A DNA stretch of 26,584 bases, taken from a virus. Position 1 is the first letter of the stretch, and the number at the start of each line of letters is the position of its first letter. Positions 2,165 to 6,930 of this stretch are shown one piece after another. The notes beneath the pieces are model-generated. The model was not told the origin of the DNA. It did no database searches and saw only the letters and a program-made list of their open reading frames with translations. The stretch lies in the IMG/VR virus record IMGVR_UViG_3300036781_000367, positions 1-26,584 of that record. One strand, written 5' to 3'. The translations under genes were made by a program, and so were the position numbers.

Positions 2165-2193
2165 AGTATGGCAAATGCAATAGAGCGGAGCAA
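2165..2193 (-). promoter_or_regulatory. Leftward early promoter (PL-like)
   Basis: On the minus strand TTGCTC (2193-2188) and CATACT (2170-2165) are separated by 17 bp. Transcription would start near 2158, giving a leader of about 26 nt with an SD (GGAG) before the gene at 2132. Two operator-like sites overlap it: one covers the -10 and spacer, the other the -35. The core 13-mer GCAAATGCAATAG also lies in the rightward promoter at 4483-4511. Confidence 0.6.
2166..2183 (+). promoter_or_regulatory. Repressor operator-like site, OL1 candidate
   Basis: GTATGGCAAATGCAATAG matches the pseudo-palindrome CTAGTGCAAATGCAATAG of the rightward promoter at 15 of 18 positions. It covers the -10 and spacer of the leftward promoter, where a bound repressor would block polymerase. 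Confidence 0.5.
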
Positions 2194-2208: not shown

Positions 2209-2243
2209 GCACCGATTGATTTTTTCTATTACTTTTGCGATAA

Positions 2244-2280: not shown

Positions 2281-2499
2281 TCAGGAAGGCGTGCGTCGAT
2301 TCGTCTGGCGAGCGTCTTCCGCGAGATCAACGAGGGTGTCTATGAACCCATCCTGGAGATCCGAGCTCATTTCCAGAAAGGTCTCGCGATTCTCTCCGGA
2401 AAGGATGACGAGAAGGCTTGTCGCCCCTCGCAACTTGCGCTCGATGCGATCGCGTGTCTCCACTGGTCCCTCGATATCTTGATTTTCGTCGTAACCCAT
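2281..2499 (-). CDS. Small acidic hypothetical protein, immunity region
   Basis: A 72-aa acidic protein. The start ATG at 2499 is supported by GGAG 5 bases upstream (GGAGCTTTTATG); an upstream in-frame ATG at 2517 has no ribosome site. Helix-forming segments cover about residues 14-35 (TRDRIERKLRGATSLLVIL) and 40-63. No known family is recognised. It is downstream of, and on the same strand as, the Arc-like gene at 2584-2772 (84 bp apart), so the pair may be one operon. A short acidic protein beside a repressor that seems unable to cleave itself could be an antirepressor or host-inhibitor candidate; that is inference from location only. Confidence 0.6.
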   Translation of the reverse strand: MGYDENQDIEGPVETRDRIERKLRGATSLLVILSGENRETFLEMSSDLQDGFIDTLVDLAEDARQTNRRTPS

Positions 2500-2583
2500 A
2501 AAAGCTCCGTTGTACATGCGGGGTCGAAGGACGACTCTTCGTTCGTCCTTGTTCTGTGCACTAATTGCGGAGCGGCGCCGACT

Positions 2584-2772
2584 CTACCTTTGGTCAGGGC
2601 CTTTGTTTGCGGCGTCGTCCGTTTCAAAATCTAGACGAATGGTGCGAAAGTGTTCGCTTAGGATCGCAATCAGCTGTCCGTTCATCGAGCGATGGTTGTT
2701 CTTCGCATCCTTCGCCAGCGCGTCGCGGATCGACGACGGGATCCGCACCTGCATCTTGATTTCTGCTGTCAT
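2584..2772 (-). CDS. Arc-family ribbon-helix-helix DNA-binding protein
   Basis: A 62-aa protein from ATG 2772 with a strong GGAGG 5 bases upstream; the much longer upstream extension of the frame is not supported. It shows the Arc/MetJ layout: a short strand (EIKMQVRIP), helix A (SSIRDALAKDAKNN), a turn with RSMNGQ, and helix B (LIAILSEHF). Phage Arc proteins bind operators as dimers of dimers through the paired N-terminal strands. The C-terminal 20 residues are polar. It is divergent from a second Arc-like gene at 2887, with a perfect palindrome between them that is the likely shared operator. It probably regulates early or immunity genes, as Arc and Mnt do in P22. Confidence 0.8.
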   Translation of the reverse strand: MTAEIKMQVRIPSSIRDALAKDAKNNHRSMNGQLIAILSEHFRTIRLDFETDDAANKGPDQR

Positions 2773-2886: not shown

Positions 2887-3258
2887 ATGGCGACCCAAGA
2901 CGATTTCGTGAAGACCGCGTTGCGATTGCCGCGGGCCCTCCACGCGGATATCCAATCCGCTGCACTGGCAGGGGGGCGTTCCATGAACGCAGAGATCATC
3001 AGCCGTCTGCAGGCGACGGTTGACGCGCCGGCAGGCTTGGCGTTGCTTGAGCGGTTGCAGGCGAGCGAAAATGCGTTGCTCGAGACGGTTCGCAAGCAAC
3101 GGGACCAACTAATGGGGGTAGTGGAGCGTTTTCAGGTGGTCGCCGAAGGTGCCGACGCCGTGTTGGCAGTTGCGAAGCCCACTCAGGAAATACTTGAAGT
3201 GCGCCGCAATATCGAGGTGCTTCGGGCGGTCATTGCAACGATTAACGGTTATCGCTAA
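2887..3258 (+). CDS. Arc-like ribbon-helix-helix regulator with coiled-coil extension
   Basis: A 123-aa protein from ATG 2887. Residues 1-42 repeat the Arc plan: strand (VKTALRLP), helix A (RALHADIQSAALAG), RSMNAE, helix B (IISRLQATV). The RSMN turn is shared with the neighbour at 2584-2772. Residues 50-95 are a long helix with heptads (LLERLQASENALLETVRKQR), a likely oligomerisation coiled coil, and the tail is also helical. No SD precedes ATG 2887. A TTG at 2866 could extend the frame by seven residues, and the promoter position suggests a short or absent leader. Its stop abuts the stop of the convergent gene at 3259. It probably controls the immunity region together with the divergent Arc protein. 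Confidence 0.75.
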   Translation: MATQDDFVKTALRLPRALHADIQSAALAGGRSMNAEIISRLQATVDAPAGLALLERLQASENALLETVRKQRDQLMGVVERFQVVAEGADAVLAVAKPTQEILEVRRNIEVLRAVIATINGYR

Positions 3259-3723
3259 TTAATTCGCGGGAGTAATATCGTGGCGATCAATATAGAAATA
3301 TGTTGAAAATGGTGTGCCGCCAGCTTCTTCTGCAGTGAATTTAACGACCGCATACGCCAAATCGGCACGCCCCACCAGCGAATCATATGACTCGAACCTT
3401 TCCACCTCAAACGTTTTATCGTTAGCCCGCGAAACGTGGCACCGGCCTTGATTCATTATGCGATGGAGATAGCTCTCGTCATGCGGCGGATTGTCCGCGA
3501 GCTGCCGGGCCTCCAGCACGTACGTGCGCCCCATGCACTCGATTGCGCCCGCCGGAACAGCACGAAATCTACGGTGCCCTTCCGAAGGGAACGTAGCTTG
3601 AGAGGGTACCTCGTTCGCATAGGCGATCACCGCTGTTCTTCCTGTCTCCGGTTGCCCTGCGAAGGAACCCGCGATACTGGCTTGGCATATTGTAAGCGCC
3701 AGCGTTGCAACGATCGTCTTCAT
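3259..3723 (-). CDS. Secreted protein co-expressed with repressor (lysogenic-conversion candidate)
   Basis: A 154-aa protein with a classical Sec signal peptide: MK, hydrophobic core IVATLALTICQASIAG, likely cleavage near residues 18-23. The mature part has two cysteines (about residues 63 and 94) that could form a disulfide and looks mostly beta-strand; no family is recognised. Its ATG overlaps the repressor stop by 4 bp (ATGA), with GGAG upstream, so it should be translated whenever the repressor is, that is in the lysogen. GC content is visibly lower than in the structural genes. A periplasmic protein made by a prophage suggests superinfection exclusion, envelope modification or a host fitness trait; the exact role cannot be read from sequence. 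Confidence 0.75.
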   Translation of the reverse strand: MKTIVATLALTICQASIAGSFAGQPETGRTAVIAYANEVPSQATFPSEGHRRFRAVPAGAIECMGRTYVLEARQLADNPPHDESYLHRIMNQGRCHVSRANDKTFEVERFESYDSLVGRADLAYAVVKFTAEEAGGTPFSTYFYIDRHDITPAN

Positions 3724-4433
3724 CCTGCTATCTCCGAAAGCGGCCCTGATCGGTAGATCACGCGGCCAAGAATGGCGATATGAGAAATCATGTCTGGCGG
3801 TACCAGCTTGTCGGGATAGCGCTGTGCATCAAGTGCGCGCAGTGCAAGATGGCCGCCGATCTGCTTCACCACCTGGCGATATATCACTTCTCCCTCGAAG
3901 TACAGAGCATAGACGGTGTTATCACGAACAACGGTGGAATCAGTGTCTACCAGCACAAGATCTCCGGCTAGCAGCATGGGGGCCATTGCAGCATCGTGGA
4001 CCGCTAGACAGCGCAGTTTGGAAAGCCGTTTCGTCGGGAGCAGTACTGCCGCATCGGCCGAGACATAGAAGCCCTTCGTCTTTGCCTTCCACCTCGCCTC
4101 ACCCGCATCCGACATCGAGAATTCATAAACGGGGAAGTATTCAGCATTCGTGCTGACCACCGGGCGCCGGAGCGTGCGCGCGAGGTCGTACTCTTCTTCA
4201 GTCTCTTCTAGGGCCGTATCGCTGGGATGCTTAGGCCCGACACCATCCGCCAGCCAGCCGGGGTTTAGCCCCAACGCGTCCGCGATAGCAAACAAGTACT
4301 TCGAGCCATTATTTCGACGGCTTTCGATGTTGTTGATGGTGGACTGAGATACGCCGGCCCTCCGCGCAAGTTCCGATTGCGAAAGCTGAGCGTCTTGTCT
4401 GGCTTCCTTCAGCCGTTCCGCGAGTGAATTCAT
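3720..4433 (-). CDS. CI-like phage repressor, HTH plus degenerate S24 peptidase domain
   Basis: A 237-aa protein. Residues 4-61 are an HTH_3 domain (LSQSELARRAGVSQSTINNI). Residues of about 98-225 have the S24/LexA fold: GFYVSADAAVLL, then the region normally holding the nucleophile, then AGDLVLVDT and a beta-rich end. In LexA, UmuD and lambda CI the nucleophile lies in a (G)DSM-type motif; here the motif reads HDAAM, so Ala149 replaces Ser. The lysine expected about 37 residues on is Arg186 (EVIYRQV). An Ala-Gly pair at 110-111 sits at the spacing of the CI cleavage site. The repressor should therefore not cleave itself with RecA. It is predicted to bind operators at both early promoters and keep lysogeny. 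It is translationally coupled to the secreted-protein gene downstream. Confidence 0.9.
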   Translation of the reverse strand: MNSLAERLKEARQDAQLSQSELARRAGVSQSTINNIESRRNNGSKYLFAIADALGLNPGWLADGVGPKHPSDTALEETEEEYDLARTLRRPVVSTNAEYFPVYEFSMSDAGEARWKAKTKGFYVSADAAVLLPTKRLSKLRCLAVHDAAMAPMLLAGDLVLVDTDSTVVRDNTVYALYFEGEVIYRQVVKQIGGHLALRALDAQRYPDKLVPPDMISHIAILGRVIYRSGPLSEIAG

Positions 4434-4450
4434 AAGTGCGATCGTAATAG
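4433..4450 (+). promoter_or_regulatory. Repressor operator-like site at repressor start (autoregulation candidate)
   Basis: TAAGTGCGATCGTAATAG matches the operator at 4491-4508 at 12 of 18 positions, including the AGTGC and AATAG ends. It touches the repressor start codon (4431-4433) and overlaps a minus-strand TATTAC (4449-4444) that could be a weak repressor -10. If that is right, the repressor mRNA leader is very short. Confidence 0.35.
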
Positions 4451-4482
4451 ACGGCGCGATTGCTTTGGCTGGTTTCGGGTTA

Positions 4483-4511
4483 TTGCGTTGCTAGTGCAAA
4501 TGCAATAGACT
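4483..4511 (+). promoter_or_regulatory. Rightward early promoter (PR-like), leaderless start
   Basis: TTGCGT (4483-4488), 17-bp spacer, TAGACT (4506-4511). Transcription should begin about 7 bp downstream, at or next to the A of ATG 4519, leaving no room for a ribosome site; none is visible. The spacer holds the repressor operator candidate. Confidence 0.65.
4491..4508 (+). promoter_or_regulatory. Repressor operator-like site, OR candidate
   Basis: CTAGTGCAAATGCAATAG is a pseudo-palindrome (CTA-n-TGC-nnnn-GCA-n-TAG). It fills the spacer and start of the -10 of the rightward promoter. Related sites lie at 2166-2183, 2191-2208 and 4433-4450. Confidence 0.55.
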
Positions 4512-4518
4512 TTCCTGC

Positions 4519-4719
4519 ATGAACGCCAAAGTCATCATCAGTGAGCTGCTCGCCCTTGGTCTGACCCAGATGGAAATGGAACGACGGACTGGCATCGACC
4601 AGTCGACGATATCCGCCATCTATACGGGACGCCGCGGCAAACGCGTGTCGTACGACGTCATGTCGAGGTTGGCCAACCTCCTCGCGGAATCGAAGGCGGC
4701 GGCCGAGGAGGGCTCCTGA
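4519..4719 (+). CDS. Cro-like HTH regulator
   Basis: A 66-aa protein in the cro position, divergent from the repressor and first in the rightward operon. An HTH covers about residues 14-36 (LTQMEMERRTGIDQSTISAI), followed by TGRRGKRVSYDVMSRLANLL, the usual final helices of this class. It is expected to act as a DNA-binding antagonist of the repressor at the operators between 4433 and 4511. The ATG coincides with the predicted transcription start, so the message may be leaderless. Next gene: ATG one base after this stop. Confidence 0.85.
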   Translation: MNAKVIISELLALGLTQMEMERRTGIDQSTISAIYTGRRGKRVSYDVMSRLANLLAESKAAAEEGS

Positions 4720-6089: not shown

Positions 6090-6371
6090 GTGTCCCATCA
6101 TCTGACCAACCTTGCGTGGGAGATCGAGCTGCGCGGAATGCAAAAGCTCGTCCTCCTTTGCCTCTCCCATCTCAGCGTGCAAAGCACGCGCGAATGCCGC
6201 GTCACTGTTGCGCGACTGGCTTTCATGTGCGGGTTGTCGAGCAGCGGAGTGCGCCAGCAGCTGGCGGAACTCGTCGCGGCCGGCCTCGTGGTGGAATTGC
6301 GCGACGGCAGAACTGTGCATTATCGCGTGAACGTCGCGCAGCAGGAGACAGTCGCCAATGCGCGCGCATAA
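6090..6371 (+). CDS. Winged-helix protein, probable replication accessory or regulator
   Basis: 93 aa from GTG 6090, chosen because GGAGG (6081-6085) lies 4 bases upstream; an in-frame ATG at 6045 has no such site. It has a compact winged helix-turn-helix: a helix (QKLVLLCLSHLS), helix-turn-helix (VARLAFMCGLSSSGVRQQLA), helix ELVAAGLV and wing ELRDGRTVHYRV. Proteins of this type with an O-like partner downstream are often the N-terminal DNA-binding part of phage replication initiation, or regulators. The stop overlaps the next gene by 14 bp. Confidence 0.7.
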   Translation: MSHHLTNLAWEIELRGMQKLVLLCLSHLSVQSTRECRVTVARLAFMCGLSSSGVRQQLAELVAAGLVVELRDGRTVHYRVNVAQQETVANARA

Positions 6372-6930
6372 GACGGACACCGCCGCGCCGGCGATGAACG
6401 CCGGGCTCGTGGAGGCCGCGATCCGTCGCCACGTGGACCACCGCCGGAACATCCTGATCCCCGAGGCGAACGTGCGCGGTCCGCACCCGCGCGGGGGCTT
6501 CGACGAATATCGCGCGGACTTCGTCATGGTCACGCAGGCGGGCTACGCGACCGAGCTCGAGGTGAAGGTGTCGCTCTCGGACTGGCGGCGCGATCTCGCC
6601 AAGCCGAAGTGGGTGACGATGCCCGACTGGATCACGCGATTCGTGTACGTGGTGCCCGCGCAACTCGGCGTGCCCGAATGGGTGCCCGCGCAGGCCGGCG
6701 TGTGGCACGTGGTGCCGACGCTCGTCGACCACTACTACGCGCACGAACCTCGCCCGGTGGCGGACGGCTACGCCATCATCGTGAAGCGGCCGCCGCACGT
6801 CCGTGGCCGCGCGAAGATTCCTGCCGTGGTGATCGGCAACTGGTACCGGAACCTCTACTACCGCTACTGGGAGCAGCGCATCGACGCGCAGCGACGAATC
6901 CCTCGGCATGTGCGGGAGAGCGTCGCGTGA
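6358..6930 (+). CDS. MmcB-like PD-(D/E)XK family protein
   Basis: 190 aa. The central region (about 48-110) carries the restriction-fold signature: RADFVMV (Asp) followed by ELEVKVS (E-x-K), then SDWRRDLAKPKWVTMP and a strand FVYVVP, matching the MmcB/DUF1052 layout in which an acidic pair and Lys form the nuclease centre. The C-terminus is rich in Tyr, Arg and Trp (NWYRNLYYRYWEQR), suiting nucleic-acid contact. Likely role: DNA repair or recombination in phage replication; a nuclease product is inferred. It overlaps the upstream gene and, by GTGA, the membrane protein downstream. Confidence 0.7.
   Translation: MRAHKTDTAAPAMNAGLVEAAIRRHVDHRRNILIPEANVRGPHPRGGFDEYRADFVMVTQAGYATELEVKVSLSDWRRDLAKPKWVTMPDWITRFVYVVPAQLGVPEWVPAQAGVWHVVPTLVDHYYAHEPRPVADGYAIIVKRPPHVRGRAKIPAVVIGNWYRNLYYRYWEQRIDAQRRIPRHVRESVA

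Follow-up and report, generated by a model that had tools for sequence, protein, structure and literature searches.

Organization of the immunity region

The window analyzed here is the whole of a 26,584-base linear virus record, a fragment about half as long as its relatives, which typically measure 50 kb. It carries lambda-like early genes, packaging genes, and a contractile-tail module that includes the tail sheath. A lambda-like immunity region runs in the order OL-like site, X, arc1, arc2, orphan, repressor, OR-like site, and cro:

2171-2238, no strand assigned: OL-like region found by motif scan, with the 14-mer GCAAATGCAATAGA at 2171-2184 (plus strand) and, with two mismatches, at 2225-2238 (minus strand)
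2281-2517, minus strand: gene X, 78 aa, without a Pfam family, following arc1 on the same strand in the position that ant holds in P22 immI-type modules
2584-2772, minus strand: arc1, Arc-type RHH protein 1 (Pfam), about 62 aa, divergent from arc2
2887-3258, plus strand: arc2, Arc-type RHH protein 2 (Pfam), 123 aa, with a C-terminal extension, in an Mnt-like position
3259-3723, minus strand: orphan open reading frame, 154 aa, whose N-terminus resembles a signal peptide and whose ATG overlaps, as ATGA, the stop codon of the repressor gene, a rex-like position
3720-4433, minus strand: lysogeny repressor, 237 aa, with an HTH_3 domain and an apparently catalytically dead S24 domain (open reading frame, Pfam, alignment, and model)
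4434-4518, no strand assigned: OR-like intergenic region found by motif scan, with GCAAATGCAATAGA at 4496-4509
4519-4719, plus strand: Cro-like HTH gene (Pfam), 66 aa, divergent from the repressor gene

The motif GCAAATGCAATAGA occurs at three sites in the window, compared with a mean of 0.05 and a maximum of one in shuffled sequences. Given these paired OL- and OR-like motifs, X, arc1, arc2, and the orphan gene are placed inside the immunity region; lambda keeps rex in the region between its operators. Since its start codon overlaps the repressor stop codon, the orphan gene, which occupies the place that rexA has in lambda, is probably translated together with the repressor in lysogens. Neither a Pfam family nor a relative was found for it in the Pfam and relative searches. 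An inverted repeat, CCCCTCGTTCGAGGGG, lies at 2244-2259, beside the OL-like sites.

No integrase is encoded within the 26.6 kb fragment, so the temperate nature of the phage is read from the repressor, cro, and operator layout, by which it would be an inducible prophage. The terminase is 69-90% identical to those encoded by Paraburkholderia, Caballeronia, and Variovorax prophages, and on this likeness the host is probably a member of the Burkholderiaceae. Among the replication genes of the window lies a gene for an MmcB-like DNA repair protein (PHROG 5429; 6358-6930, plus strand).

The repressor retains the S24 fold and lacks the catalytic dyad

Pfam recognized both domains of the repressor, HTH_3 with an E-value of 2.2e-12 and Peptidase_S24 with 2.1e-12 over residues 109-226. 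An AlphaFold2 model built from 26 sequences had a mean pLDDT of 80, rising to about 90 for residues 141-230. Its fold matches were, best first, the lambda-186 hybrid repressor (7jvt), Thermotoga maritima LexA, coliphage 186 CI (2fjr), and lambda CI, with LexA S119A entries among the structure matches. A different placement of the two domains kept the whole-chain TM-scores low; taken alone, the C-terminal domains of lambda CI, 186 CI, and LexA each gave a TM-score of about 0.7 by target length. Pfam, the model, and the fold matches thus agree on an N-terminal HTH and an S24 fold of the self-cleaving LexA/CI type.

Three stretches of the gene bear on cleavage:

3876-3878, minus strand: codon CGC of Arg186, in the catalytic Lys column (alignment, codon read)
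3987-3989, minus strand: codon GCA of Ala149, in the catalytic Ser column (alignment, codon read)
4101-4106, minus strand: codons GCG GGT of Ala110-Gly111, one to three residues beyond the cleavage column of the homologs (alignment)

The homolog set drew on 398 Burkholderiaceae genomes, 146 Paraburkholderia genomes, and viral contigs and comprised 51 distinct sequences at 99 loci. Single-protein scans of the genome and viral collections recovered no close homolog; the best identity among the 398 Burkholderiaceae and 146 Paraburkholderia genomes was 38%. All 51 homologs carry the catalytic Ser and all 51 the catalytic Lys, whereas the window repressor has Ala149 and Arg186 in these columns: the homologs' RGD-SMEP stands opposite HDA-AMAP, and LVKQIFK opposite IYRQVVK. 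These replacements, which the preliminary description had read from the sequence, are thereby confirmed. Both fall on invariant columns, in an S24 domain that is otherwise intact and well folded, and this is more than chance would give. Dead LexA and CI are standardly made by mutating the Ser or the Lys to Ala. No Ser or Lys was found in place of the dyad, at or beside the active-site columns, in the alignment to the 51 homologs. Lys190 was considered as a substitute for the residue missing at position 186 and rejected, as its counterpart in the homologs is a second Lys, conserved beside the catalytic one and itself without catalytic function (VKQxFK).

The third element is the scissile pair. 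In 48 of the 51 homologs an [Ala/Cys]-Gly pair lies at FS-[AC]G-xG, and this column corresponds to Met107-Ser108 or Ser108-Asp109 of the window repressor (FSMS-DAG), depending on the alignment. Ala110-Gly111 aligns instead with the next x-Gly turn, one to three residues past the pair, where the homologs also have the turn Gly. Its spacing to residue 149 is 39, near that of lambda, although spacing alone is not decisive. The alignment does not support the earlier proposal that the repressor keeps its cleavage pair: an Ala-Gly pair exists, but it is displaced and is probably not the cleavage site. All three cleavage elements (Ser, Lys, and Ala-Gly) look lost in the alignment, and self-cleavage of this repressor is almost certainly dead. 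The closest homologs, the live S24 repressors of two Burkholderiaceae prophages (L149 and L202), are 36-38% identical to it over the full length and keep Ser, Lys, and Ala-Gly, whereas in the window repressor all three look lost. A state that is the reverse of the window's occurs in two homologs, L150 and L151, where Ser and Lys are intact and Ala-Gly is lost (SPRDK and DADDG).

A second dead repressor and a phage group in which no live S24 domain was found

Loss of the catalytic residues is not unique to the window. The S24 repressor of a related phage, G019, is also dead by alignment, with PDDRMAP in place of xGDSMxP and LYRLL in place of xVKxx, so that Arg occupies both catalytic positions; its linker lacks the cleavage segment. 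The two repressors share only 29% identity, and each is on a long branch of the tree, which therefore does not separate one shared loss from independent losses.

The search for Peptidase_S24 (PF00717) covered 28 related records, 23 of them with a terminase at least 69% identical to that of the window, and 17 of those at least 45 kb long. Among the 23, only G019 gave a match, and none had a live S24 domain. The other two matches, G024 and G025, belong to more distant phages (terminase identity 52-54%), and their S24 domains are live. In seven relatives an HTH repressor with a non-S24 C-terminus is encoded divergently from cro, and the same arrangement is likely in five further relatives, from position only. 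Together with the missing Ser and Lys and the displaced Ala-Gly, the lack of a live S24 repressor in these related phages supports the earlier proposal, made from sequence, that the prophage would not be induced by repressor self-cleavage. The immunity module is often swapped across related prophages, whereas the terminase is conserved. Unrelated HTH repressors with a non-S24 C-terminus, divergent from cro, were seen in the related prophages L176, L180, L183, L184, L192, L193, and L194.

A divergent Arc-type pair followed by a small gene

The window and G019 have in common a cassette that lies, in the same order, between paired operators: a divergent Arc-type pair, then X. Identity between the two phages is 63% for arc1, 57% for arc2, and 53% for X, which encodes 78 aa in the window and 92 aa in G019. 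In G019 a phage-specific motif, ATACGTTTGTATT, is found in the repressor-cro gap and again just past X, and a Cro-like HTH gene occupies the same place as in the window. X was found only in these two phages; a weak match at L294 was rejected as chance. The protein is acidic in the window (pI 4.4) and matches no Pfam family, neither of antirepressors nor of toxins. Its AlphaFold2 model is weak (pLDDT 65) and predicts, with low confidence, a helical protein.

Of 19 records, three contain Arc-type RHH domains, namely the window, G019, and G028, and in each they come as a divergent pair adjoining a non-cleavable repressor. Homologs of arc2 in viral contigs were found at 80 loci, or 79 with G019 left out. 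A divergent Arc-like partner is present at 41 of the 79, some of these pairs overlapping and perhaps mis-called. In 22 of the 41 pairs a classical antirepressor gene follows arc1: 19 distinct genes scored by Pfam (six AntA, five Rha, four Bro-N, two KilA-N, one P22_AR_N, and one ORF6N), 11 of which contain an ANT domain, plus three near-duplicates recognized by their sequence likeness. Such an order is that of P22 immI. No antirepressor is recognizable in about half of the 41 pairs, a count in which some clearly different downstream open reading frames, left out of the Pfam scan, figure as non-matches. At L333 a small open reading frame separates arc1 from a real ant gene, which means that X may be an accessory rather than an antirepressor; by this analogy it could be an accessory remaining after loss of ant.

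Induction of a repressor predicted not to cleave itself

With a dead dyad, the repressor would need another switch, as the preliminary description had argued in naming an antirepressor and cleavage by a separate protease among the options. The antirepressor now has the best local evidence, in the RHH pair and in X, which stands where other phages have antirepressor genes, while no protease of the ImmA/IrrE type was found in the window or 18 relatives. The reading we favor, and hold to be fairly probable as a whole, is that the S24 repressor is non-cleavable and that an antirepressor, for which X is the best candidate, relieves it. The protein would still work as a lysogeny repressor, its S24 domain being retained solely for dimerization or oligomerization. 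As self-cleavage is predicted to be absent, activation of RecA would not directly inactivate it. Binding of a protein antirepressor to the repressor, in the manner of Tum and 186 CI, would most likely start lytic growth, and relief by a phage-encoded antirepressor is rather likely. X is the best local candidate for that partner, and the divergent Arc1/Arc2 pair would hold its expression down, as in P22 immI. The identification of X as the antirepressor is tentative, and we consider it somewhat doubtful. The widest version of the proposal appears unlikely: X would found a new family of small antirepressors, placed under a P22-type Arc pair inside the immunity region and relieving a dead S24 repressor independently of SOS, in a Paraburkholderia-type phage group without RecA-driven repressor cleavage.

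An antirepressor might also be encoded outside the window, under LexA control. Antirepressor genes outside the immunity region are known for 186 and Gifsy, and a typical relative, at 50 kb, is about twice as long as the window. However, the window contains no LexA box (CTGTN8ACAG), the scan giving nothing above chance, and no site scoring at least 14/20 was found in the scanned parts of relatives; nor is there an ANT gene (PF03374) in the 19 records, and we regard this source of relief as unlikely. We give about the same small weight to the absence of any dedicated trigger, with spontaneous switching through the repressor/Cro balance or repressor turnover, and with arc-X as a moron cassette that lies in a rex-like position and serves as a toxin-antitoxin pair, in exclusion, or in some other role. 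That protease, LexA box, and known ant were all not found speaks for it, as do the layout of arc1 upstream of a small open reading frame, typical of toxin-antitoxin pairs, and the place of lambda rex between the operators. Against it, X matches no toxin family, and the homologous divergent RHH pairs of other phages carry antirepressors.

Three further explanations are much less probable. Cleavage in trans, by a protease of the ImmA/IrrE (M78) type or one of the host, has precedents in ICEBs1 ImmR/ImmA and Listeria MpaR; with no match to PF06114 in the window or 18 relatives, it seems very unlikely here. There is a comparably slight chance that the gene is decayed or misassembled and has no repressor function, as might be suspected of a metagenomic fragment whose repressor has no homolog closer than 38% identity. 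Yet the open reading frame is intact, with a normal HTH, a well-predicted fold, and coding-like composition; the paired operator-like sites, cro, and the ATGA-coupled gene are all present, and the same dead state recurs in G019. Least probable of all is that self-cleavage persists using other residues, an idea prompted by the nearby Ala-Gly pair: the active-site columns and their neighbors offer neither Ser nor Lys, and replacing either by Ala is an established way of killing LexA and CI.

What is new at this locus is the combination of a kept-but-dead S24 repressor with an Arc-pair cassette whose small gene belongs to no known family, in a phage group in which no live S24 repressor was found. 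The repressor is a clear natural case in which all of the S24 cleavage chemistry looks lost and the fold is retained, with a second case in a related phage. Such dead repressors, in a group without a self-cleaving one, point to induction other than by RecA-driven cleavage, and the common arc1-arc2-X cassette is a concrete, small, and testable switch candidate.

Comparison with known systems

Coliphage 186 CI (2fjr) is the structural parallel: it too combines an HTH with an S24-like fold without the dyad, lacks the Ser motif, has Arg at the Lys column (SIREL in the alignment), and is among the top fold matches of our model. It differs in being only about 16% identical over the fold match and in belonging to a different phage type. 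Phage 186 is induced by the antirepressor Tum, which is under LexA control (PMC7708051), whereas neither tum nor a LexA box was seen in the window fragment.

P22 immI (mnt, arc, and ant) resembles the cassette in its divergent Arc-type RHH pair and in the gene that follows arc. Unlike Ant, X is small and outside the Ant family (no Pfam match and no PF03374), and the window cassette lies inside the immunity region. The P22 C2 repressor is itself cleavable, whereas that of the window is predicted not to be.

Gifsy-1, Gifsy-2, and Gifsy-3 are induced without repressor cleavage, as proposed here for the window, through antirepressors that act on short repressors (PMC3121763). Those repressors have about 136-150 aa and no C-terminal domain, whereas the window repressor has 237 aa and keeps its S24 domain. 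One survey that covered linear plasmid-like phages predicted no autoproteolysis for 210 of 271 cI proteins (PMC10432266). Non-cleavable repressors are thus a known and common kind, as the cases of 186 CI, Gifsy, and the linear plasmid-like phages indicate. The TF-smORF modules of the latter phages (PMC10432266) are similar in that a transcription factor adjoins a small open reading frame whose product inactivates cI without proteolysis; the cI there is self-cleaving and the transcription factors differ. In ImmR/ImmA systems an M78 metalloprotease gene lies by the repressor, whereas the window has none.

At L302, L308, L309, L310, L311, L314, and L321, an HTH-only repressor has an Arc-like gene a short distance behind it on the same strand. 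The pairing of an RHH protein with a non-cleavable repressor is recurrent across these seven loci.
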